A DNA stretch of 27,475 nucleotides from Nannochloropsis salina CCMP1776 (Eukaryota > Sar > Eustigmatophyceae > Eustigmatales > Monodopsidaceae): the NCBI GenBank assembly GCA_004565275.1, contig SDOX01000012.1, forward strand, positions 33,893 to 61,367. Reading direction: 5' to 3'. The position numbers and the translations under genes are program-made. The notes under the pieces were generated by a model. That model saw nothing but the letters and a program-made list of their open reading frames with translations, was not told where the DNA came from and ran no database searches. Below are positions 5,656 through 21,689 of this stretch, piece after piece (position 1 is the first letter of the stretch; each line of letters begins with the position of its first letter).

Positions 5656-6867
5656 CTAATTCTCGGCCCACCCTACGCGAAACGACGGCAATCTCTCCAA
5701 CTCTACCTTTCTCACCATCCACCCACCCTCCCTCCCTCCATCCCGCCCTCCTTCCCTCCCGCCTCGACCCAGCGTCACCACCGCAAAGTGACCGTCCGCC
5801 AAGGCCCCCGGGTCCACAATGATAGTACCTCCTGCCTCCTCCACATTCCCTTTTCCCACACCTTCTCGGTGCCGTATCCGGAGCAGCACGCGCGGCGATG
5901 CGTCCTCCGGTATTGACGGGGAAGGGAGGGAGGAAGGGGCAGAGGCAGGGAGGGAGGGCGGGCTTAAGGGGGAGGCCATTGTCTCCGGAAGGTGCTCCAT
6001 CATCATCATTCTCCACGATCCATTCCTCCCTTCCTCCCCCTCCTCCTCCGCCAAATGTGCTGCCGCGCATAGCGTCCGTGCCAGCACCTCCTCCTCTTCC
6101 TCCCTCCCTCCCTCCCGCCCCCCTCCCCTCCCTCCCTCGTACGCATAACCGCCCAAATACAAATCTGTCGACAGCTTGACGCAGCCATCATGCACGTTCA
6201 ATGCCGTCGACGTCAACACCTCCTTCTCCTCCCTTCCTCCCCTCCCGCGATTCGTTCTTCCCGCGCCGTCCCCCCCGCCCTTGGTCCGTTCCCGCCTGTC
6301 TGGCACCACACAGGCCCGACACACCACATTCTCCAGCAAGGCTACTACATTGATCATATCCCCCTCCACCGCCGCTTGGCCCACCCAAGTCTCTGTATTC
6401 AAGGCTGGGAGCCGGCCTGGGACCTCCTCCTCCTCCTCCACCTCCTCCCATCTCCCTTCCTCCTCGTCCTCCCCTTCCCCTCCTTCATTATTTATTCTAC
6501 CGGTCTGATTCCTCCCGGTATGCGGGGCAAGAGACCCACGCTTTCTCCGTGTCATATGTGCGAACGTCCCCAGGAGCAACAAAAGGTCGAATTTTTGATC
6601 TTCGACCTCCATCCCGTCTTCCAAATCCATCCCTTCCTCGCCCGCGCCAAACCTGCTTCCACGGGACGAAGCATTCCCGGACGCAGTGAAAACCGGGCTC
6701 CGGGCATGCACCCGAGACTTGGCACGTTCACAGGATACATTTTCCACGACTTTCCAGGCCGTCAGGGCCATGGCTGTATCGAAGGTGGGGGAGGCGACGA
6801 CCAACAGGCGCAAGGTGACAGGAGCTTGGAGCCCCTCGGGGCGGGGTCCGGGGGAAGCGCATGGCAT
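5656..6867 (-). CDS. Unrecognised 403-codon open frame, possibly several exons
   Basis: I do not recognise this protein. The frame runs from an ATG at 6865-6867 to TAG at 5656-5658. Parts look like a folded protein: LRLLVVASPTFDTAMALTAW near the start, DMINVVALLENVVCRACVV in the middle, STALNVHDGCVKLSTDLYLG, and IIVDPGALADGHFAVVTLG near the end. These are separated by Glu/Gly/Arg-rich runs that are GGGA repeats and may be loops or in-frame introns. A second in-frame ATG (MALTAWKV, about 6771) is an alternative start. The plus strand is also open for long stretches here, as expected of GC-rich repeat DNA, so strand choice rests on the hydrophobic, ordered look of the minus-frame segments. No transmembrane helices or signal peptide are clear. 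Confidence 0.5.
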   Translation of the reverse strand: MPCASPGPRPEGLQAPVTLRLLVVASPTFDTAMALTAWKVVENVSCERAKSRVHARSPVFTASGNASSRGSRFGAGEEGMDLEDGMEVEDQKFDLLLLLGTFAHMTRRKRGSLAPHTGRNQTGRINNEGGEGEDEEEGRWEEVEEEEEVPGRLPALNTETWVGQAAVEGDMINVVALLENVVCRACVVPDRRERTKGGGDGAGRTNRGRGGREEKEVLTSTALNVHDGCVKLSTDLYLGGYAYEGGRGGGREGGREEEEEVLARTLCAAAHLAEEEGEEGRNGSWRMMMMEHLPETMASPLSPPSLPASAPSSLPSPSIPEDASPRVLLRIRHREGVGKGNVEEAGGTIIVDPGALADGHFAVVTLGRGGREGGRDGGREGGWMVRKVELERLPSFRVGWAEN

Positions 6868-8293
6868 TTCTTTTATGGCATCGGCTAGTTCTCAGCTGTA
6901 CTTATTGGTTGGAAAAGGGATCAAATTGTTGGGGTGGGGTGCGTTGAAATTATGTTCGGGATGATCAAAGCGATTCCCAAGTTGTGGACTAATTGGATTA
7001 GTTCCGCTCGAACTGCGTGTCTTAACCAATAGCCAAAACACGCAACGCATTTCTAGCGGAAACTTGGTTCCATAATCTCATACAAGCATTCTCTGTCCGC
7101 GTGGCATTCTTACGTGGCTCTAACCAAGTCCATGTCGTAGGTTGTACAGCAACATCAACTCCTCTACCTGCCGGCAACGAGGGCACCGCATCCCATAAAC
7201 AAGCCCCCCAAGAGCAGCAAAACAAGCCTTTTGATCAGCGGGCACATTTCAGCAGATATTTTGACGAACATTCACATCTCCAATGCCACGTGGTCAATTT
7301 GTCCATCGTGAATGAGTGGTTTCAAAGTCGACGGGCTACAAGGCGCAGCTCGTAACTGATAGCTGAGCTCCTGGCTGAACGATGTTAAAAGTGCCGGCAT
7401 AAGTTTCCAAAATACAAGCATCCGAGTCCGAAAACGAAGCCTTTCGATGGGTGTCCCCTTCTTTCCAATGTGCTGGAGAGCATGTATCCCATTCACTGTG
7501 TAGAGCCCGCATGGTCAACGTCAAGAGTGCGAGTCTTGAAAAGGACCAGAGAATATCTTGCCCTCCCCCACATCTACTCAGTCTTCTTTCCACCCTTTGG
7601 GAATTGACCAGTAAACATGGTCGAAATGCTTACCCGCCGTCGGTCCTCCGACAGACTATTCAAGGGTCAGCAACACCTCTACCGCGCTGTGCTTGACCTT
7701 TAAATACCATAACAGGGCTTGTAATTGCCCTATGGCAGATTCGAAGCTTGGCGGGAGCATTCCTACGCTTACGTGTACGCCGTGCTCAAGCACTGGGGGC
7801 CTTGACATAAAACAGCGGAGAGACCTTTTACCCAGCGTTGGCACTCCTGTGTGAATGATCAAGAGCTAAATAGACCCACACTGCTCTTTTTGGGGTGTCG
7901 ATGCGGAGATGCATGGATCCCACGCTGTGGCAGGACTACTACCCTTTCGGAAGCACGGGGGTTCTGAACCTCACGGCATGGAGCTCTTGCACGTGTTTCC
8001 CAGCCTCTCACGCACCCTCCCCCGACGAACTCATAACACAGGCAGCTCTAAGACTCCAATCGAGGGCTACGCCAGTAAGGGAGCGTTCCGTGCGGCAATA
8101 ACCAAACGAGGAAACGACACAGTGGGCTGACATCGCCATCACCACCCCTCCAAGTGACCGTGAACCTTCCCCACCCCTCGACAAAATCGTCTTCCATCCC
8201 ATGCCCATCATTACGCAGAGCTAAGCCGCTAGTTGTAACCTTAGTCAGCCAGGGACCGGGTGGAAAGGCGGAGAGGGAGGGTGAGGAGGAATA
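6868..8293. other. Intergenic region, no supported gene
   Basis: About 1.4 kb of more even base composition with no GGGA tracts. Only short open frames occur, none with a recognisable motif. It should contain the upstream region of the receptor-phosphatase gene and, if that frame is real, of the minus-strand gene at 5656-6867. No tRNA or repeat array was seen. Confidence 0.4.
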
Positions 8294-11200
8294 ATGGGTA
8301 ATCTACCGCCCTTTCCCATGCTGGCGCCAGCCACCATCGTGACGATGGTCCAGGCCGAAGCGGGCATCTCCATCGCCGGGCTCACCATTTCCCTCATGGC
8401 CTTGGCCTACGACCATATCATGTAAGGAGGGAGGGAGAGGACGGCGGGAAGGGGGGAAGCGCGGAGTTGGCAGGTTTGGGGGAGGGAGAGGGGGTGATGT
8501 CCTTGGGAGGGATCCGTGCATTTGCTCGCCGGCTCACGCTTCCTCCCGCCCGCCCTCCCTTCCTCCCGCCCGCCCTCCCTTCCTTCCGCACCAGTGCCAA
8601 GGAACCCCTCCGTTTCCACGCGCACATGACCATCGTCCTCTTCGTCTTCGACCTCCTGGACGCAATCCCCATGGTCCTCTCTCGCACCACCTTCGGCCAT
8701 CCCTGGCTGTGTGACGCCCAGGGGATCGCCATCACCGCCCTCGAGGTCATGATCGTCCTCTGGAACAGCTTCATGGCCCTGCAGGTGCGCCTTCCCTCCC
8801 TCCCTTCCTCCCTCCCTCCCTTGCCTTTCCGTCCCTCCCCTGGTTCCGACCCTCCCTCCCTCCCTCCCTCCCCCCCTCCTTCCCCCAGGTCTACCGCTGG
8901 ATCCTCCTCAAGACCGACACGAACACGCTTCGCCGCCAGCTCCACCCGGCCGTTGTCGTCATCGTCCTCTTCGCCCTCGCCAACACCGCCTTCTGGCGCC
9001 TGGCCGTCGCCCCAATGGACGGCTCGGCGGACCTCTGGTGCTGGATCCCCAAGTACATGCCCTGGGCCCGCTTTGGCTCCGTCTATATCTATGTCTACCC
9101 CTCCATGCTCTGGGTCTCTTGGGTTTTCATTCAGGTTCGGATATCGGGGCAGTCCCCTCCCTCCCGCCCTCCCTCCCGCCCTCCCCTTCTTCCCTCCCGT
9201 CCTCCCGTGGCGGGACCCCTCCCGCCCGCCCTCCCTCATGCCCCTCCCTCCCACCCTCCCTCCCTCCCTCCCTCCCTCAGGTCTACCGGCGCGTGGTCAT
9301 CACGCCCAAGAAAGGCTCCTCACACTCGGTCCGTCAGGCCGCCGCCCGCCTCCGCGTCGGCCGGAAGCTCATGCTTTACCTCCTCTGCTTTCTCGGCACC
9401 TGGACCTTCCCTATGATCAATCGGACCGTGCAGATGGGCGGGCACACCAATCCTTTCCTCCTCTTCCTCCACGTACGTGTGTCGGGCCCGCACGCCCTCC
9501 CTCCCGCCCTGGTCTTTTGGCTCTTTGTGTACCTCCCCTCCCTCCCCCGCGACCTCCCCTTGCCCTCCCTCCCTCCCTCCTCCCCTCCCTCCCTCCCTCC
9601 CCATGCTTCCCAGGTTTCTCATCCATTTCACCCCTTCTTGTCCCGCTAATGCATACAGGTCATCTCCAAACCCTCCATGGGCTTGTGGGACTCTCTCGTC
9701 TACGGCTCGGTAACCGCCGTTTTGAGCAGCCGTTTAAAAATGGGAAAATACGGGCGAAAGAAGGGGGCAGGGCCCTCCCTCGAGAGCGTGGACTTGGACC
9801 AGCCGGTGGAGGAAGGGGAGGGCGGGGGGGAGGGCGGGTTCAAGGGGGAAGGGGAAGGGAAGGACGTGGACGAGGACGACATCGTCTGGTTGGACAAGGA
9901 GGAGGATGGCGGGGAGGAAGAGTGGAAGGAGGCAGGCAGGAGGGAGAAGGCGATGGAGGAAGGGCGCCGGGGGAGCAGGTATTTTCATTTGAATTCAAAT
10001 TTGAATTCTATGAACGGGAAAGGACAGGTGTGCAAGGAGGGGGCTGGCCAGGGAAGCGGGAAGAAGCAGGAAGGGCGGGCCGCAGGTGGGGGAGGCACGG
10101 GGGAAGGAATCTGGGAAGTGGAGATGGGGAAGGAAGGCGGGGAAGAGAGGGGGGGCGGTACCGTGGGGACAAGCACCTGCTTGACCTCCATGGCGAAGGA
10201 GCTTCTCGGCACCGCAAGCGCCCTGGCTCCGAAACCGGTGGCAGGGGCAGCCACGGACGTGTCGGGGAGAGGGAGGACCAACGGCCCGGGCTTTGTCGGG
10301 CATGCCGGTTTCTCCGCCGCCGAAAAGCACCGAGGAGACGGCGACGGCACGGAAGAAGCGGAGGACAGGGCCAAAGGCCGTGCACCCTCCCTCCCGGCCC
10401 AGGCCTCCCTGTCCACCTCCTCTTCCCTGCGTCTTCCCCTCCCCGGTCGGCGCCATGCGCGACCCCCACCTCTGCGGGCTGCTTCCTCCAACGCCCTCCT
10501 CTCCCCCGCCCTTCCCCCCGCCCTCCCGCCCCCCACCCCACCCCTCACGGCCAGCATCTTCGTTTCCACCTACAACTGCGGCTCCCTCCCCCCCTCTGCC
10601 CTTTCCTCCTCCCTCCCTTCCCCCTCCTTCCTCCACGCCTGGATACCCCTCCACCACCACCTCTACATCATTGGTGTCCAGGAATTGAAGGGTCTGCAAG
10701 CCCTGAAACAGCTTTTGCACACGCATTTGGGAGGTCCCGCCGCTTTTCAAATGTATGGGCAGGAGATCAGTGTGGTGGGAAACGGCACGGCGTTGGCCGA
10801 ACGCTTGGGGGCGATCGCCCTCCTGGTGTACGCCAGGACGGAGGACGTGGAACGCGGCGTCTTCGAAATGACAGCGGTGCCCAAGGCGGGGGGGCAGCAG
10901 GTGTTGCAGGGGAAAAACCTCCTCGTGTGCCGCGCGGGAAACAAGGGGGCGGTCTGCCTCCCCTTCCGCTACCATCAGTCCACTCTGGTCGTGGCTGCTG
11001 CCCACCTGCCCGCCGACGGCTCTCGGCGGAGTAAGGTGGAGAAGCGGAACGCGAATCTGAGGTAAGGGGGAGGGACAAGGCGGGAAAGGAGACCGGACCA
11101 CGCTGAGGAAGGGTGGGAGGGTNNNNNNNNNNNNNNNNNNNNNNNNNNNNNNNNNNNNNNNNNNNNNNNNNNNNNNNNNNNNNNNNNNNNNNNNNNNNNN

Positions 11201-14200
11201 NNNNNNNNNNNNNNNNNNNNNNCTCTTCCCCGGCCCACCATTTTGCGTGGCCCAACCCGCCCCTCCACGCGTGTGCTTTTTGCACTTTCTCCTCATTTTT
11301 CCTCCTCCCTCTCTCCCTCCCTCCCTTTCCCCCTCCCTCCCTCCCTCCTTCCCTCTTCCCCCCCCTCAGACCGCATGCTGGGCACACCCGAGGAGGTCCT
11401 GGAGGCTATCGCCGAGTCTGCCCGGAAGGCCAAGAGGGACAGCCGGCGCCGGTGCCGTCGGGAGCTGGCACCTGGAGCCAAAGATAAGGAGCAAGCAGGG
11501 AGGGAGGAGGGCGGGAGGGAGGGGCGGGGGGAGGAGCCTCCTTGGTCCCCGTCATCCTCCTCCTCTTCCTCCACGCCGGCCCGCCTTCTCTCCGAGTCCT
11601 CCCCAGGCCCCGCCCACGGGCACAACCTCAGTCGCTGCAGCAGCGTGGCCCTGGAAGGATACTCGAGCAGCAGTAGCGACGACGAGAGCGGGGCGGAGGG
11701 CGGGGCGGAGGGCGGGGCAGAGGGAGGGTGGGACTGGCTCCAGGTCCGGTACCAGGGAGTGGAGGCGCGGGCAGCCCCCGCCCGGCCCTGCCTGCACTGG
11801 GACAATCTGGTCGAAACCCGTGACGAGTTAAGGAAGAATCAATCCGCGGGCGCGGTCCTTCACGGCTTCCGGGAGCACCCCATCTCCTTCCCGCCCTCCT
11901 ACCGGCGGGTCCGAGGTGAGAAGGGCGACGCCCACGACTATACGGACGTGCAGGTGTTGAAAAAGGCGTACTCGACCTACCTGGATGCGGCGGGGAAGAC
12001 GGTGGAGATCGAGGTGGTGCCTGAGGGGGGAGGGCGGGAGCGAGGGGGGGGCGGAGGGGAAGGGGGGGAGGGCACGAGCACTGGGAAAGGAAGGGAGGGC
12101 GTGGAGGTCGGAGGACCCACGCCGGCGGATGAGGACGACTACGACAACCGGGGCGGGGGCGGGAGGATGCGGTACGAAGCGACCTCCAACACCACTGTGG
12201 CCCATGCCGCTGTCTCCAGCGCCGCGCAGCCCTCCGCCTTGACCTCGGTCGAAGCCGCCGCCCTCTACAAAGTCCGGGTACCGAGTTATACGGATCGGAT
12301 CTGGCTCCACTCCCTCCCCGACGTGGCGAACGCCTTGTCCTTCCAATCCTACGAGTTGTGCGATGCCTTGTGGGAAAGCGACCATCGGCCCGTCTCCGCC
12401 GTCCTCCACCTCGACCTCCGCCCCGCCCTCAACATGCACCGCGCTTACCTCCAGGCGTACACTCCCCGCGCCCCTCTCTTACCCCTCCCTCCCCGGTCTC
12501 CGACGGCCATGATGAAGAACAAGGTCTCCTCCTTCTTCAACGGAACCAGCCACACGGGGGGAAATGGCGGGAGCGACATAGTCAAGAAAGGCTTGCGGAG
12601 GAGCGAGGGCAGCCACGGAGGGATCCGGGCCACGCCCTCGATCCGGAGACTGGACGTGGAAACAGCGGCCGCAGCGGCGGTAAAGGCCATTGCTGGCTGC
12701 CCTACCACCCAGTCATCGACCCCGTCCTCCGCGCCAGCCCTTCTCCAGCCGGCGCCAGCCCAGGCCCGGGAGGGAGGGCGGGAGGGAGGGCGGGAGGGAG
12801 GGAGGGCAGAAGGGCGGGCGGGCATGCCCCTTTCGCAGAACCTGGAGGCAGATAAACTCTCTGCCCCTGGTTCGTCGGGAGAAAGGGGATCCATGGCTTC
12901 GACCCTGCTCCATTTACCTGCGTCTTCGACGCTTTCTGCTCCCACCCTGCTGACCACCTCCCTCCCCCCCCCCCTCCCCCCTGGCCCCGCCGCGAGGCTT
13001 TCTAGACGCCCCTCCCTCTCCCTCCCTTCCACACCTAAGTTCAAATTCTCCAGCCTCTCACCGGGGGGAGGTCTGACGTTCGGGTGGGGAAGTGGGAGAT
13101 TTCTTGCCTCCTCCACGACCAGCCCTGCCTCCACCCCTTCCTCCACCCCTGCCTCCCTCCCCGCCCCTCGTTCGGGACCGACCTCCCGCCGAGCCAGCGA
13201 GTCCTTGTCCTCACCCTCGGTGCCCCTCCTGGTCTTCTACGTGAAGCTGAGCAACATGAGCATCACCTTGGAACCGCCTCCCTCCCTCCCTCCCTCCCTC
13301 CCTCCCTCCCTCTCCTCGCTTCCCTCGAACAAAGATTCCCCCCGGCCCATGGGGATGCTGCAGGGCCAAGGAGGGGAAGGGGGGCGGGAAGAAGCGAGCG
13401 GGGAAGGGGAGGTCGGCGGAGAGGGCGGAGGAGGACATGCCACCCAGGAGGTGCCCCCTGCCCCCCGCCCTCCCTCCCGCCCTCCCTCCCGCCCTCCCTT
13501 CCGCCCTCCCTCCCGTCCTCCCTCCCGCCCTCCCACGTCGGGGACGGGGAGGGCACCCGGGGTTCCGGCATGGGCGGGGGCGGGTTCAAACTCCCCTACA
13601 CGCAGCGGAAAGTCGGGCGGCTGGCCGTGCTGTTCCCCTTGCCCAGCGAAAACCAACTCGAGCATACGCACCGGACCTTGGAGTACTTGGACGCGACCAT
13701 CTGCCACGAATGGTCCACGTGGAGCCGGGAACGGAAAGGGCTGTTGAAGAGCACGAGCCACCACGAATGGCGGCAGGCCACCTCTGAGGAAGGGATCGTG
13801 GTCTCGGCGGCGATCAAGATAGGCGGGTCCTTGCACACCCTCCTGAAGCTCATCGACGTGAACGGGGGGGAGCTCGCCGAGGCCGTGCTGGCCTTGCCCC
13901 GGCCGGGGGGAGGGGGGGGAGGGAGCGGGGGAGGGATGGGGGGCAAGGGGAGGAAGAAACGAGTGACGGCAAGTCTGACGAAGCACACGGCTTACCGGGG
14001 GACCTTGTGCTGCGACGTCGAAGTGGTCAAGGTGAAGATCCAGCGGGAAGCCTCCGAGGGAGGGAAGAAGGGAGGGAAGCGGGGAAAGCGGGAGGAGAGT
14101 CTGCCTGCGAAGGCGCCGCCCACGTCGGGGCCGGGTACGCCCGTGGGCGAGGAAGGCTTGGGCGGGAAGAAGGGAAGGAAGAAGGGAGGGAAGGAGGGAG

Positions 14201-14658
14201 GGAAGGAGGGAGGGGAGGAGGGTGGAAAGGGGAGCGGCTCGCGGTTCGATTGGGAGACTGGGATGGTCGTCGAGGGCGAAAAGGCATGTGCGCCTCCCTC
14301 TGCTTTTCTCTCCCCTCCCCCGGTCCCTCTACCGCTACCTCCTCCTCCCCTTCCTCCGTGCCCTCCATCGTCTCGAGTGGAGCAGGTGTCGTCGCTTTCC
14401 CCTCCTTCATCGACTTCAGCTCCTCTTCCTCCTCTTCCTCCTCCTCCTCCATCTCTGCCTCCTCTTTCCCCCCCTCTTCCTCCTCCTTCTCCTCCTCCCT
14501 CTTTCACTCACCCCAATCCATCTTCTGCCTTCCCCGCAGCTCTGCCCGCCCCTCGCCCTCGAAGTCCCGCACCCTTCCAACCCCTTTCCTCTTCTCCCTC
14601 CCGCCCTCCTCCCTCTCCGCCCCCTCCTGCAGAGCATGGAGGAGGGGAGACGAACTAA
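8294..14658 (+). CDS. Seven-transmembrane receptor fused to inositol-polyphosphate 5-phosphatase (gap inside)
   Basis: Exons: 8294..8421, 8595..8784, 8889..9134, 9281..9472, 9659..11061, [missing exon in gap], 11370..13450, 13552..14658; about 1780 aa are visible. Seven hydrophobic helices lie at roughly residues 20-39, 52-71, 85-105, 125-142, 169-188, 217-236 and 244-268. Cys82 and Cys157 could form the usual TM3-loop disulfide. TM7 ends PSMGLWDSLVYG, close to the cAMP-receptor/Git3-like (class E) pattern. A Gly/Glu/Lys-rich linker follows, then a 5-phosphatase (IPPc) domain from about residue 549: FVSTYNCGS, IIGVQEL with the metal-site Glu at about 594, GNKGAVCLPF, AAAHLPADGSRRSKVEKRNA. After the gap come HGFREHPISFPPSYR, RVPSYTDRIW and WESDHRPVSAVL. 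The C-terminus has VPLLVFYVKLSNMSI and later strands that resemble a C2-type beta sandwich, then Pro/Ser-rich tail. It would remove the 5-phosphate of phosphoinositides or inositol phosphates at a membrane under receptor control. Confidence 0.85.
8422..8594 (+). other. Receptor-phosphatase intron 1, G-rich 5' end and C-rich 3' end
   Basis: It opens GTAAGGAGGGAGGGAGAGG and ends in repeated CCCGCCCGCCCTCCC before CACCAG. The ends are complementary, as in ATG3 intron 2. Confidence 0.75.
8785..8888 (+). other. Receptor-phosphatase intron 2, (CCCT)n-rich
   Basis: GTGCGC donor and CCCCCAG acceptor; the interior is almost wholly CCCT/CCTT repeat. It separates TM3 from TM4, at a Gln codon followed by VYRW. 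Confidence 0.75.
9239..9279. repeat. (CCCT)n tract before receptor exon 4
   Basis: Pyrimidine tandem repeat forming the polypyrimidine tract of the intron 9135..9280, which ends CTCAG. Confidence 0.8.
9991..10008. repeat. Perfect 18-bp palindrome inside the linker exon
   Basis: GAATTCAAATTTGAATTC equals its own reverse complement. It forms an AT-rich island inside a GC-rich purine-rich exon and encodes part of FHLNSNLNSM in the linker between receptor and phosphatase. Confidence 0.9.
11123..11222. other. Assembly gap of exactly 100 N
   Basis: A round-number run of N marks a scaffold join of unknown true length. It sits in an intron region flanked by a G-rich left side and a C-rich right side. 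Exon 9659..11061 ends with two bases of a codon, but the exon at 11370 needs one base before it, so the two cannot be spliced directly. At least one exon is hidden here. Confidence 0.95.
12767..12806. repeat. GGGAGGGC-type repeat within the phosphatase C-terminal exon
   Basis: Purine-rich tandem repeat read in frame as an Arg/Glu/Gly run between the 5-phosphatase domain and the C2-like part. Confidence 0.7.
13278..13312. repeat. (CCCT)n tract read as Pro/Ser/Leu run
   Basis: Tandem CCCT directly after the codons for KLSNMSITLE. It is in frame as a low-complexity Pro/Ser run and could alternatively belong to an unrecognised intron. Confidence 0.75.
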
Positions 14659-16691
14659 AAACAAAATGTCAGGAGACAGAAAGGGCAGAATCGACAAAAT
14701 TCCCTCTCAAAGGCGCGGAGGCATGAAAACGGAAGGCGAAAGACGAAGGTGTTTGAGGGAGGCGAAGGCAGGAGGGCTGCGAAACAAGATAGTAAAAAGT
14801 AGGAACTTAAAGCAGTGGATTGAAAAAGTAGGGTCGTTTGGAAAAGTAAAAGGGATTATAAGAATGTAAGGAGGAGTCGCTGCATCTGTTCTAAGGGACG
14901 GAAGGGGGGATAAATATCACCGACAGCTGCTCACTCTTACTAAAGAATATACATACTTGTAAAGTGCATTCCTGTGGGCATGGCTGATATTGCTGGAACG
15001 CAAGAGATTGATATTAAAGGTATTTTTCTGTAAGGATAAGTGTAACACGACGTCAGCATTAAAGAATCACGGAGAGGAGAGTGATGGCAAAAGCTACAAC
15101 GAGCAAATAGGACATGCTTCAGCCGCATGGCAGAATCTATTATTTTATTTAGTTTTTTGAATTGCACAAGCCGGTGGAGATTACCGCTATGATCATAACA
15201 AGGCGGAAACTAATAATCAGGTGACCGTGCAGGCAATAAATCCCGAGCGATGAAGATCCGCGCCCTGTAGGTGGCTTGATTGGTAGATTGGTAGCTCTAC
15301 ATAAAATTGAATTCAAGATCAATGCGGAGGAAAGGAGCATGTCATTTATTTTCAAGTGTGGTACATCCGCAGTGATGGGAAACTTCCGTCAAAAAGCACA
15401 CGCGGTTGTGGATTGGCAACAACGCGATCTAATTGAGCTGGTAAGGGTGAATTGGATTCTAATCTTGACACATCATCAGAAAAGCTCGTTGGGAGGCTTG
15501 TCCGGTAGAATATATACAATTAATGCTTCCTATTTGTGCCCTTGATTCAAAAGAGTACCCGTCTCAAAATCGAGGACAAAAGACCTTTTACAAAGAAAGC
15601 AGAGGGCGGGTCTATCGCCAAGAAAACGAAAAACCGTTTCTCGGGGCGGGCGAAGGCGAACGTTGGGGGGCTGAGGCGTGGTGCTGGCAAAAAAGGCGGT
15701 GGTACACATGCATACTGATCCGTCGACATGAGGAATGATTGATTGAGATACTTTCTACGCCTTTGCTTGCAATGTGATGATGCAATTGCCAGGCGTTGGG
15801 TCCTCATCCACAGCCACTTTGACGGTTGGAAGAGCCCTTTCGACGGTAGGATTCCATAGATTACAAAAGTTCTCGCGCTTACAATCCTCACCAGTGTCTT
15901 CCATCACCTGCTTTATTATTTCAGGCTAAAGTAATCATTTGCATGAGTAACAAGATGCTCATCAACTTGCCTGTGCGAGACCCGTCAAGCTTCTCGCGGA
16001 TGCATATCAGAGGGAAGCCTGCGGTACGTCTACGAAAGCTTTGCCGGTTTGAAGTACCCAGAATTGAACAAGATATTGAGCAGTACACGCATGAGAAGTT
16101 GTTCTTATTATAATGAAGGAGCGCGCGTGCAACAAAGATAGGGATGGTTCGCCATGCTTTCATATTAATGGGTGTTCATAGGTGTTCCATGACTGTGCTT
16201 TCTTTGCGACAATGGCATCACGCGCTCAGCCGTCTCAACCCCGGCACTCTATTGTCGTTTGTGGAATAACATATAGGTACAAGTCCCGCGTGAGCTTATT
16301 CCCACCAACGACACCAATGCCATGCAGGTACGCGAGACAAAACTATCCCTTGTGCTTAAAATTTGTCATTTCTTAATCTGGTAGATTTGTGTAACTGTCT
16401 TGCGACGCTATGATACAAAGATGAGTTTCGTGATCTTGATACACAACGCATAATGTGTTGAATTTGGACAACATTACCCTTTACGTAATATATGTTGATC
16501 GTCATAGCATAGCAAAAGAAATGGCATGCGATGCGTGAAAGAGGATGACATTTTTTTGTGGTGAAAATAGAGAGAAGAGCATCCAGTTGAAAAAAATATA
16601 TTGGGTCAAGATTCATTTCAAGGATTTCCGGCAACCCTCTTACAATCATGCCACACTATAGCCCACCCCTAATAGAGCAGGCGAGCCATGG
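14659..16691. other. AT-richer spacer, no supported gene
   Basis: Base composition drops sharply after the receptor-phosphatase stop codon and GGGA tracts vanish. A short basic open frame at 15536..15718 begins with GTG, not ATG, and has no recognisable motif. I see no tRNA, no transposon coding sequence and no tandem array. Confidence 0.4.
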
Positions 16692-17051
16692 ATGTTAGGC
16701 CTGGGTTCTCCCGCTGCCAGCATCTCTCGAATTCCTGCCTCAATTATCTCGCCCGGCTATCCACAAGCCTCTTCCTCCAAAGCACTTTCATCGAGTGGTT
16801 CGTCATTAGCGAAGAACTCCAGGATAAGCGCGGACGCTGACATTTCAATAGAAACAAAAGATGGAGGAAGTGATTTGACACCACCCGTAGCATCCGTGAC
16901 AAATAAACAAATGGTGGAGTGCGGCGATTTTTTAAATCAATCGAACTTATCGTCAAATAAACGACATGCGCCTGACAATTCAATAGAAGCATGCGATGGT
17001 ACTGAGGTTGAAGGATCACCAAAAGCGAAAAAGGTGATTCGCTTGAGTTAA
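16692..17051 (+). CDS. Hypothetical 119-aa Ser-rich ORF (weak)
   Basis: ATG to TAA, 119 codons, in AT-richer DNA. The product is Ser/Ala-rich and predicted disordered, with a basic end (SPKAKKVIRLS). No family is recognised. A second coding-looking stretch in another frame follows at about 17055-17178 (for example ARLKWRPPEEILFDHLPRNY), so this may be part of a longer or decayed gene of unknown kind. Codon use is unlike that of the confident genes nearby. It may also be chance. Confidence 0.3.
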   Translation: MLGLGSPAASISRIPASIISPGYPQASSSKALSSSGSSLAKNSRISADADISIETKDGGSDLTPPVASVTNKQMVECGDFLNQSNLSSNKRHAPDNSIEACDGTEVEGSPKAKKVIRLS

Positions 17052-20000
17052 AACAATTCCAAAGGATAAAAATAAAGGGCGAATAAAACAGTACAATGCG
17101 TTTTATGACCTTGCTCGTCTCAAATGGCGACCACCAGAAGAAATCCTGTTCGATCATTTGCCTCGCAATTACGTCAAGTAGGCGTTGTTCATTGCTTTTG
17201 TACGAATGCTCGTGGCCAAAAAAATATAAAGTAATTGGAAAATTGCCACTGAGATCAGATTCTAATAGTAACAAAGGTAGTGGAAATCTCCAACTCATGA
17301 ATGTACTTTCCTTGATATGACCCGACTATTCTGGAAATACTCAATCAAAAATGTTCTTTACATTGTCGTTGAGAGTTGATCGTGTCTGGGCTATAGAGCT
17401 TTTTCGATCTGAAAACGCGAGAAATCAGAAAGAAAAGGAAACTTGGATACTCAAATTTGGTATATGCATTCTTCCCCCCCTCACTTTAAAGTTATTGAAC
17501 CAGAAAGGGGGGAAAAGTAATGGCAAAGTAAGGCTCACTTACAGGTCATTTTGGAGAATCAACTTATTGATTAAATGATGCATGAGCATCGTTTTGTTAC
17601 AACTCTGATACATATAGTGCATACATGCTCGAGTTTCGTATACATTCAATAGTGGCAATAACATTTTTGTTGGACTTTAAACGAGCTTTTTACGCTCCTT
17701 TTTCTGTCAACGAGTTCGCGCCCGCCATGAAGTTCAAAAATTCCCGCCCCGCTTACTTAAGCTTAGAACTTTGACGTCCGATGGCTGTGTATCGTTTGCA
17801 AGGGCTTCCTTGTCCCCACCTGACGCTGTGACACGTATATATACATATACGTGCTAAATTGAGCATTGCATAAAAGGAATCTTCACGGCAGATAAAGTAT
17901 GCGTGTGGTACTCAGCTACTTGCGGGAGGGAAGGACGGTTTCCGCCCTAACCAACCGACATTTCACGATGCTTCAAATTGTAATAATTTGTAGCACTTGC
18001 TACCAAAACCTGATTTGACGAAGTTTGTTGCCATTCTTTGACTGGTGCGCTTCGTTTACTTTGCTTTTTATGCGCTTGGTTTCGGAATGCGGACGGGTAT
18101 TATGGCATTGTTAACCGTTCGTCAAAAGTTGTTTGAAAGGGGGGAAGAAAGTGTAACTTCCGAACAGTCGATGTCGACAAAGTTGGCGCATTATTAGCCT
18201 CACGCTGTTTCATGTGCCCATGCCACAAGCGCGCATGTGATTAAGAACGACACATGATTCCGCATCACCAAGTAAAGGAAACAAAGCCATAAACGAAAAT
18301 ACACATAGTCAGAGAGCCTGGTCAAGAAACGAGTCAGTTTTTGGTTTGCTTCTCCCAAGAAAGCATGGGCTCCAGATCGTGTATCCGTTTTTCGAATTCC
18401 ATACCTCACAACATGTGCAACATATGAGAGGATGCACCTCTCACTGTACGGAACCCTCATATCTGTAAGAGCCAATTCTTACCGCCCCGTAGTATCATCT
18501 TGCTTCTGTGCACGTGCAAGGGAGGCATGCCATGACGTCAAAAGACCATTACAGACGAAGACGCGGCTTCCTGGGCGCGAGCAGATTATTCTACTTATCG
18601 TGTCCATTATGGCCTGTGGTCAAGGGGGGGAGGTTCGAGGGAGGGCATTGGAATTTACGCCTTGTTAGTGACCTCATGCTGTGAAAAACTTGGACTGTGA
18701 TAACACAACCCGATTAGGGATGATTCGAAGATATACGAGCATGAATTAAAGAAGCGTGACCTTGACCAAGTTCGTACAGTTGATCTCCATGTGTATATTA
18801 CCTGCCATCTTCAGTCCACGCAAAAACAAGACCAAAAATTATCGAAAAGGCATTCATTTAAGCATTAAACTCTTCGCCTGCACTCTCATAAAGCTCACTT
18901 CGACGCATAATACCCGATTTGGTTTTTGATAGGTGACATGAGTATAGAGTGATGGAAACTAGTAGAGAGCTCGCAATATTCGTGCGTCAAAGGTGGCGAC
19001 AGGAGGGGCAGGCTAGGTAAAATGCCATGTCACCATCCTGATGGCATCCCAGACGGGGATGTTTTGACCGTTGAAGAAGGTGCTGCGAACCGCTTCTTCG
19101 ACGTAGACATGTACTCCCATATGCTCCATACGTGGTTGGCGGATGTGATGTAAATTTGGATTGGAGGAGAGCGAAAGACCAACTTGCAAGAGTGAGGCTA
19201 CCACCTTTAGCCGATCCCAGACCTCATGTACTTCATGAAAGCAGCGTCAAGCGCACCCATTTCATCTAAATAATTCGCGAAGAATTTCATCAAGTCATGT
19301 CACGCATGCTTGTTGATGATACCATCGTCTCATGGCATCCAGCGTCCAAGTAGCGGTCGATTTGAGAATGCTCGTACCAATCACCAGCCAGGCACTTATT
19401 GGAGGAACGCTGCCAATTTATGTCCAAACTGAAATCAAATCATCTTCAATGCCCATTTCTCCCACATGTGGACATTGTCGTGTAGTGATGAGTGCAGATA
19501 GTAATGAAACCTACAATACCAGACGAAATGATAAAATGGCCGCCTGTTCCATGGCACACATGCAATTTGAATCGACATTTAAATTATTTGACCGAGAGGA
19601 ACTCGGTTTGGGACTTACGTTTTGACACGTGCATTTGCCTCGGTCCTACGTCTGATTTTCACGCCCATGAATCAATTTCGATGATTGTATCGTGAAAAGG
19701 TATAAGAATTGGATGTGACATCCTAGGCGTGTATTCATGCATCATTAAAGGAGGAAAAATGCTGCCTGAAGTATTGAGAAGTACTCGGCTGTTGGTTTTA
19801 CTGTTGACAGAGCATTACGCTGCTCCTTAAAGTCCGTCCACCATAAAATGCAAGCAAACAAAAAACAGGTCATCACAGCATATGATAAGCAAAGAGTCAG
19901 ACATGGAGACACAGTGTGGTGTTCGCAGTGTCCTGTGGAAGTGGCAAAGCATTTGTGAAGTTAAGGTTAGACAAAAAAGGAGGGAAAAGAAGACTGAAGT

Positions 20001-20297
20001 TGCGGTGACGTAACGTGTCCAAACCGGGCATGGAGGAGGTCCACTGAGATGCCCTGCATGGGCCCGCCTATTCTACTAACCGCCTATTGATTATAAGAGT
20101 CTGGCACGGGAATCATTTTGTGCTCGCCAAGATCCGCACAATATGATATTGCTTTTCTTTTATAGTTCTCGTCGGGGGCATTCGGCGTTCATTGGGGCGC
20201 GCGATGAGACGTTACCATTATCGTTTATATCTCTATTTCGTTTTCCGCCGTTACACAAAATACACACGGCTTCTTTTCAAGAGTAAGTGCTGCCAAC
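17052..20297. other. AT-richer spacer, no supported gene
   Basis: More than 3 kb with only short open frames on both strands. The longest, such as the minus-strand frame at 19013..19204, lacks a proper ATG and known motifs. A 22-bp near-palindrome lies at 17832-17853. The last few hundred bases should hold the promoter of the Gln-rich gene. Confidence 0.4.
17832..17853. repeat. 22-bp near-perfect palindrome
   Basis: Arms CACGTATAT and ATATACGTG face each other around an AT-rich centre; only the central few bases break the symmetry. Confidence 0.8.
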
Positions 20298-20577
20298 ATG
20301 GACGCGCCAGGCGTTTTGACGCCTGACACGCGAATATGTTACGAGTTGTATCCCCCATTGCTTCCGGGTCAAGGAGGGCCTTGTCCATGTGTTAGGTGTG
20401 CTGGGCAGCCCTCTAGTCCAATTGTACAGCGTCCGATCGAGCCGGTCTGGGAGCGACGCAACCATCAACTTCTGTTCAATCAGGAAAATCAAAAAGGCGA
20501 ACAACAGCTTGAGCTTGAGCAACAACAACAACACCATCAATGGCAATATCAGCAGCGGAAGCAGCGGCAGCGGCAGC

Positions 20578-20618
<41 letters not shown>

Positions 20619-21689
20619 CAACACCACCACCTGATGGAGCAACAAGAGAAGAACCGTTATCTGCTAGAGCAACAAACATCACACCCACGCGAACATCAGC
20701 AGCAGCAGCCGTGGCCGCAGCAATATACGCAACCACAATCACGACCGGAACGGCAGCAGCAGTCGCAACAGCGACCTCTTCCACGGGCTCTAGCACAACA
20801 AGCTCCACAACTACAAGAGCAACAGTATTATCAGCCAAATCGAGTCGACCATTACAATCGACCACATCCATCCATGTATCGGCCTCAAGAAAACCAACAG
20901 CCTCGACCCTTCCCCGGCGAGCATGAGCCCCATTTGGTCCCGCAAAACCCGCCCTGGGAATTTCATTGCGTGTGTGGGCGTAGGGTACCCCTGCCACCAT
21001 ACCCGCATCCACAACGTCAAACAGAGTACGACCAGAATTTAGTCAATTTCGAGCAGCGCATGCCAGAAAACACGCAGCAGCGGCGTGACCCTCATATCAT
21101 TCCTCAGCCACCACCAGGTTGGCAACCGCCTTCGATGCCACCCGAGACCGGGCATGTTCATCGGCCTCCGCTCGAAGTAAAGAGACATTCTTGTCCTCCA
21201 TTCCCGCCATTCAAAATTCGGGAGCATGACCAGGGCCCAAAAGCCTTAGATCCTATGCGTCCTCCCTTCGTACCGGATCGTCCTGCTCTGCTCAATTTAG
21301 AGCTTGAGGAGAAAGTGCCAGCGCTCGTCATTGCGGAGACCCCCAAAACACGGACTCTTACCTCTGGCGTCGTCACATTCGAACGAGCGAGAGAAAGAGG
21401 AATAGCCGAAACAGAAGAAGAGAAGGAAGAAGAAGAAGGTGTATACGACGAAGCATTCCTGATCCCTGCAAACCTTCTCAATAGCAGTATCCCGCAGTCA
21501 GAGGACAAAGGTACGGAGGAGATGAATGGGCTGAACAGGATCGCACAAGCTGGCGAAGGCAGTCGCAAGCAGGGATCCGTTGAACTGCCTGCACTACGAC
21601 TCCCTTCAGTTAAAGAATGCAACGGCTACAACCCTGCAGAGCTCGGACAATTCTTGCAGGTCCTATATCCTCAAGGCTCTCGCACTTGA
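20298..21689 (+). CDS. Gln-rich orphan protein, 463 aa, single exon
   Basis: An uninterrupted frame from ATG to TGA with no GGGA tracts. The N-terminus (MDAPGVLTPDTRICYELYPP) has a Cys cluster CPCVRC. Then come long Gln/His-rich segments including about 14 consecutive Gln (CAG then CAA codons) and three His. A Pro/Gln/His-rich middle carries a second Cys motif (FHCVCGRRVPLPPYPHP) and is followed by an acidic Glu run (EEEKEEEEG). The C-terminus (ELGQFLQVLYPQGSRT) looks helical. I know no family with this layout. Gln-rich, disordered composition is common in transcriptional regulators and RNA-granule proteins, but function is not shown. Other frames across the repeat give poly-Ala and poly-Leu, but this frame alone is open at full length and looks ordered at both ends. 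Confidence 0.7.
20560..20631. repeat. CAG/CAA microsatellite (poly-Gln) with CAC run
   Basis: Interrupted CAG-CGG units, then ten uninterrupted CAG codons, four CAA and three CAC codons, in the Gln frame of the orphan gene. Confidence 0.9.

Follow-up and report, generated by a model that had tools for sequence, protein, structure and literature searches.

The window analysed here, a stretch of 27,475 nucleotides from Nannochloropsis salina CCMP1776 at the end of its contig (SDOX01000012.1, positions 33,893 to 61,367; C13:33893-61367 in our contig numbering), carries between positions 8294 and 14658 a set of exons that very probably make up a single gene for a GPCR-INPP bigram protein, in which a seven-transmembrane (7TM) receptor of the G protein-coupled type (GPCR) and an inositol polyphosphate 5-phosphatase (INPP) form one polypeptide. 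The predicted order starts with a seven-helix receptor of the cAMP-receptor (Dicty_CAR) class at the N-terminus, continues with a linker of ~270 residues on the intracellular side and the 5-phosphatase domain, and ends with a conserved C-terminal module. The features of this locus, with TM denoting a transmembrane segment, are as follows.

8294..8421, plus strand: exon 1, with the start codon, the N-terminus and TM1, followed by a GT-AG intron (8422-8594)
8595..8784, plus strand: exon 2, with TM2-TM3, followed by a GT-AG intron (8785-8888)
8889..9134, plus strand: exon 3, with TM4-TM5, followed by a GT-AG intron (9135-9280)
9281..9472, plus strand: exon 4, with TM6 and the beginning of TM7, followed by a GT-AG intron (9473-9658)
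9659..11061, plus strand: exon 5, opening with the remainder of TM7 (to ~9706), with Dicty_CAR and Exo_endo_phos2 in the same frame
~9720-10540, plus strand: low-complexity linker within exon 5
10568-11056, plus strand: N-terminal half of the 5-phosphatase domain, within exon 5
11123..11222, no strand: assembly gap of 100 N in the middle of the 5-phosphatase domain
11370..13450, plus strand: exon 6, with the second half of the 5-phosphatase domain (11795-11923 and 12266-12400), including PSYTDRI and SDHRPV
3' part of exon 6, plus strand: low-complexity region, then the beginning of the C-terminal module (VPLLVFYVKLSNMSITLE, 13220-13276)
13606..14658, plus strand: exon 7, with the conserved C-terminal module (to ~14062), a low-complexity tail and the stop

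Introns 1-4 are 173, 104, 146, and 186 bases long, GT...AG ends are found in all four, and the spliced exons 1-5 (8294-11061) form one frame of 719 residues. Exon 5 contributes 467 stop-free codons that run from the end of TM7 (VISKPSMGLWDSLVYG) into the 5-phosphatase domain. Its limits had been placed exactly to the base in the first-pass annotation of this DNA, and the phosphatase motifs read there (VSTYNCGS, IIGVQEL, and GNKGAV) are all present. Position 14658, the end of the span given there, does close a stop codon, but one further intron is required to reach it, and the 100-N gap had gone unmentioned. We propose an intron at 13451-13605, which keeps the frame, from phase and GT-AG ends only, and the two boundaries of exon 6 are likewise placed solely by frame and splice consensus. 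Tandem CCCT-type repeats lie at 9155-9278 in one intron, at 11298-11367 before exon 6, and at 13456-13534 in the proposed last intron.

The first-pass annotation had claimed a fusion of a cAMP-receptor-type 7TM protein to a 5-phosphatase, and the domain search of the translated exons that it proposed as a check recovers both domains above cut-off in one spliced frame. Within the 719 residues, Pfam reports Dicty_CAR at 24.0 bits (residues 26-267, cut-off 21) and the 5-phosphatase family Exo_endo_phos2 at 27.8 bits (residues 556-718, cut-off 27), while the open frame from 11372 gives 50.1 bits for Exo_endo_phos2 and represents the rest of the domain. The window protein thus carries a 7TM domain at its N-terminus with a phosphatase domain following in the same chain, as a GPCR-INPP does. 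Matches of the 5-phosphatase profile run across the genome fall at 10568-11062, 11795-11923, and 12266-12400 of the window (C13:44460-44954, 45687-45815, and 46158-46292), the second of these scoring below the curated cut-off. Pfam reported no phosphatidylinositol-phosphate kinase (PIPK) family in the three window proteins scanned, and the attached domain is a phosphatase. Hydropathy of the 719-residue frame yields just four peaks at or above 1.6; at a threshold of 0.9, there are seven in the receptor part, with TM5-7 at 1.37, 1.18, and 1.09, and one additional peak (1.37) inside the phosphatase. Because of this weak hydropathy and the extra peak, the count of seven helices leans mainly on the profile match.

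A gene-prediction artefact had been called unlikely on the ground that receptor and enzyme share one exon. The conclusion stands, while the argument from the single open frame is weak. A wrong reading frame, 8302-11034, crosses this region with 910 codons and no stop, so in DNA this rich in GC and repeats a long open frame is poor evidence by itself; the CCCT-type repeats would, in our reading, also favour long false frames. Over 9659-10540, the GC content differs among the three codon positions in a coding-like manner (0.66, 0.56, and 0.76), and the true frame of exon 5 stayed open in 0 of 5000 mononucleotide shuffles. Independent of open-frame length are the domain matches and the copies at two paralogous loci, C14 and C1, on which grounds we rejected a chance open frame. 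At both loci, one uninterrupted frame (1554 codons at C14, 1223 codons at C1) leads from the TM segments through SDHRPV and beyond, with no N in the stretches examined, and it is these frames that make an artefact unlikely. Exo_endo_phos2 scores 102.5 bits in the C14 frame and 109.6 in the C1 frame, the sole Pfam family above cut-off there, and the solved structure closest to the C14 copy is SHIP2 (E 3.7e-11).

These copies belong to a larger set. In the genome searched (26.5 Mb, 103 contigs), the 5-phosphatase profile gave at least 20 exon-level matches, which we grouped into 12 loci. A VCPI-2 protein encoded in this genome matches the solved chain 8zo9_2 at 455 bits over 223 residues (233 bits for the next hit) and marks the alga as a eustigmatophyte, VCP proteins being typical of Nannochloropsis and its relatives. 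Two of them, C55:610k and C52:1002k, have a 5-phosphatase complete in one frame, with no array of hydrophobic segments seen ahead of it. At least ten loci are related to one another: the window, C14, C1, C57, C36, C99, C11, C47, C55:1133k, and C72. Hydrophobic segments lie upstream of the phosphatase at nine of the ten (the window and eight others), and at C11 this position is occupied by 5354 N. The number of segments at the threshold used is not seven in every case, and those of C72 are scattered over several frames. The receptor parts of the paralogues were recognised through hydropathy and a residue of TM7 and not through a profile. This residue, an Asp (WDSLVYG in the window, D-A in the others), is present in all nine copies with a readable TM7: six of six in an alignment in which some rows were trimmed or joined (A2), with L025, L030, and L031 scored by eye. 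Among the copies compared with that of the window, five for each part, receptor parts are 16-23% identical and phosphatase halves 30-41%. A search with the window receptor matched the C47 receptor at E 0.003 (25% over residues 77-232); this receptor too precedes a 5-phosphatase. In our reading, the related loci would go back to one old fusion that was then duplicated.

The catalytic motifs of 5-phosphatases (IPPc domains) are T-x-N, QE, NKG, a His, GDLNYR, P-S-Y/W-x-D-R, and SDHxPV. Most of them are visible in the alignment of the C14 copy with SHIP2, and the window copy retains all that can be read (STYN, VQE, GNKG, AAHLP, PSYTDRI, and SDHRPV), GDLNYR being expected at the gap. Exon 5 joined directly to exon 6 is out of frame, positions ~152-195 of the phosphatase profile are missing from the window copy, and the paralogues place GDLNYR at this point, which is why we propose that a short exon has probably been lost from the assembly at 11123-11222 or next to it. 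The C14 paralogue reads GDLNYR-NRGHPEEILEMVAHSAR where exon 6 of the window opens with RMLGTPEEVLEAIAESAR, and the GDLNYR stretch of the window copy would therefore be expected within the gap or next to it. At C14, C1, C57, and C55:1133k, the Asn, Glu, Asp, and His of the motifs are conserved and the neighbouring residues differ slightly; the copies at C36, C47, C72, and C11 were inspected less fully. A different pattern is found at C99 (L027, C99:48001-58000, minus strand; reverse-strand positions ~5900-7200), which reads TTFD, VQRS, GTKG, and GNLNYR. This copy has thus lost three catalytic-type residues, an Asn, a Glu, and an Asp, each from a different motif, while PSYTDRI and SDHRPV are retained and hydrophobic segments lie upstream, a combination suggesting that it may be a receptor-pseudophosphatase.

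Downstream of the phosphatase, six aligned copies (the window at 13220-13276 and 13606-14062, L023, L024, L025, L027, and L030) share a conserved module with the pattern LFPL..EDP ... H.LLK..D ... ELG..VI. In the alignment (A1), the rows have 153-389 residues with low-complexity inserts and are 23-35% identical to the first row. Pfam assigns no family to the module in any of the six members, a profile search of PDB gave one chance-level match only (E 0.53), and single-sequence fold prediction produced no usable fold (mean predicted local distance difference test score, pLDDT, 31.8). SHIP proteins carry a C2 domain, and a C2 domain was suspected here by position only; it is supported by none of these three analyses.

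Several observations weigh against the assignment of a receptor-phosphatase fusion. The gene models are predicted from the DNA sequence alone, by frame and GT-AG splice consensus, both Pfam scores in the 719-residue frame are barely above cut-off, TM5-7 are weak by hydropathy, and the middle of the 5-phosphatase domain is absent from the assembly (11123-11222). Among the paralogues, none of nine open frames from seven loci exceeds the cut-off of any 7TM profile, the best scores being 12.2 bits for Dicty_CAR in L029 (cut-off 21) and 14.3 bits for 7tm_1 in L030 (cut-off 30.5). The receptor frames of L026 and L029 have no phosphatase match at E<=1, their phosphatase lying in other exons. Used as a query against the genome, the window receptor recovers no other receptor besides that of C47. 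A genome-wide Dicty_CAR search returned no match at all, the window included; since exons were scored separately and the window receptor was itself missed, this null is uninformative.

If the fusion is as predicted, the enzyme would face the cytosol and would remove the 5-phosphate from phosphoinositides such as phosphatidylinositol 4,5-bisphosphate (PI(4,5)P2, or PIP2) near the receptor. Binding of a ligand would shift the receptor helices, and TM7 together with the linker would switch or position the attached phosphatase, with the consequence that a signal directly lowers local PIP2. Such direct, ligand-driven control of the attached phosphatase is in our view the most likely mechanism, at somewhat less than an even chance, and the physical fusion of receptor and enzyme makes it the simpler reading. 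Activation of the enzyme by ligand with bypass of G proteins is itself put forward in PMC5784254 as a hypothesis, described there as awaiting test, which tempers our preference. A bypass of G proteins is also not forced, because the genome has a G-alpha match of 382.7 bits, with one TGA within the matched stretch.

This G-alpha match gives appreciable, if lesser, weight to a second explanation, that the fusion is real but the receptor signals through G-alpha, while control of the phosphatase is indirect or the enzyme locally restrains PIP2; G-protein-dependent models are set beside direct activation in the accessible part of PMC6033456, and what speaks for direct control instead is the simplicity that the fusion would lend it. 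Rather unlikely, to our mind, is a 7TM part that merely anchors the phosphatase and sorts it to the membrane without ligand gating. The weak hydropathy of TM5-TM7 and the divergence of the receptor parts relative to the phosphatase halves would suit an anchor of this kind, but diverged receptors that preserve the TM7 Asp, attached to enzymes with most motifs intact, would be expected equally of a family that responds to different ligands, and ten copies would fit diversified sensing. That the fusion is only apparent, with a receptor gene ending at ~9720 and a separate 5-phosphatase gene starting from an internal ATG, is very improbable: the low-complexity linker does contain several in-frame ATG codons, and open frames come cheaply in GC-rich sequence, as the 910 codons of the wrong frame illustrate, but there is no in-frame stop between TM7 and the phosphatase, other loci retain the order (C14 and C1 from TM segments through SDHRPV in a single frame), and an identical domain order has been reported in oomycetes and N. 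gaditana (PMC5784254, in its accessible part).

Fusions of a 7TM receptor to a kinase were also sought in the genome. The PIPK profile gave eight matches representing six loci, one of which, C83, has internal stops. No 7TM array was found at the six loci with a hydropathy threshold of 1.8, which would miss helices as weak as TM5-TM7 of the window, and at L049 three hydrophobic stretches lie 1.3-2 kb upstream of the kinase, in short frames. The motif LRxG[I/V/L] was matched six times, at five of the six loci, and never in the strict form LRxGI. A GPCR-PIPK is thus unsupported across the six PIPK loci, a weak negative given the limited sensitivity. Phosphoinositide-specific phospholipase C (PI-PLC, PF00387) had no match in the genome; the controls were silent as well, and this is no evidence of absence.

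In the remainder of the window, GC drops from ~0.6-0.68 in the gene to 0.40-0.45 over ~5 kb downstream (15001-20000), where there is no stop-to-stop frame of 200 codons. Further on, an open frame of 493 codons (20208-21689) has a glutamine-rich stretch encoded by a CAG repeat.

Whether this architecture had been described in algae was left open by the first-pass annotation. It is already known, having been published in 2018 by van den Hoogen et al. as the GPCR-bigram type GPCR-INPP, N. gaditana included (PMC5784254). According to the accessible part of that paper, Phytophthora infestans has seven GPCR-INPP genes, other oomycetes have between one and nine, and the only non-oomycete with the type is N. 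gaditana, which has seven genes and no GPCR-PIPK. A companion piece (PMC6033456, PLoS Pathogens, 2018) lays out direct, proteolytic, and G-protein-dependent models, again as far as its accessible part goes. Within the literature collection searched, GPCR-INPP was matched by these two papers only, and nothing else on receptor fusions in algae appeared among the papers listed in broader searches. From what is accessible of a 2022 paper on inositol trisphosphate (IP3) signalling in oomycetes (PMC9694693), BLAST with human queries gave no robust INPP5 homologue in this group; this fits poorly with the 2018 count, and the method may be the cause.

The window protein shares with the published bigrams of oomycetes and N. 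gaditana the N-terminal 7TM part, the C-terminal inositol polyphosphate phosphatase, and membership in a small gene family. By description only, the alga of this study differs from N. gaditana in having at least ten loci versus the seven genes reported, and one copy with changed catalytic motifs; GPCR-PIPK, for which none is reported there, was not seen here either, with the weakness of that negative noted above. The window gene is most probably a true receptor-phosphatase fusion of the published class, which is on record for this alga or a close relative of it.

Among other known systems, the GPCR-PIPK proteins (RpkA of Dictyostelium and the GK proteins of Phytophthora) show the same direct fusion of a 7TM part to a phosphoinositide enzyme, but carry a kinase where the window protein carries a phosphatase. 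SHIP2, SHIP1, and other solved 5-phosphatases (5oko, 3nr8, and 3mtc) have the same series of motifs and are the nearest solved relatives of the C14 paralogue, while the half-domain of the window matches them weakly (best E 0.072); to our knowledge, 5-phosphatases of this solved SHIP2/SHIP1 type have no receptor part. The likeness to Dictyostelium cAMP receptors is one of profile only, with Dicty_CAR just 3 bits above cut-off, and we know of no enzyme attached to those receptors.

Beyond the published class, the additions made here are modest and consist of the copy number (at least ten versus seven), the changed motifs at C99, and a C-terminal module that matches no named family. A possible though on balance doubtful picture is that the GPCR-INPP family has expanded in this alga to ten or more sensors whose task is to take off a 5-phosphate, none having been seen to add one; in it, the C99 copy could serve as a decoy or regulator with a probably dead phosphatase, and the six aligned copies have in common a C-terminal module of no Pfam family. 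The fusion would link sensing to the removal of phosphoinositides. With ten or more copies, and with no receptor-kinase fusion seen, a photosynthetic alga of this kind would offer a simple setting for the gating of an attached lipid phosphatase by a 7TM receptor.

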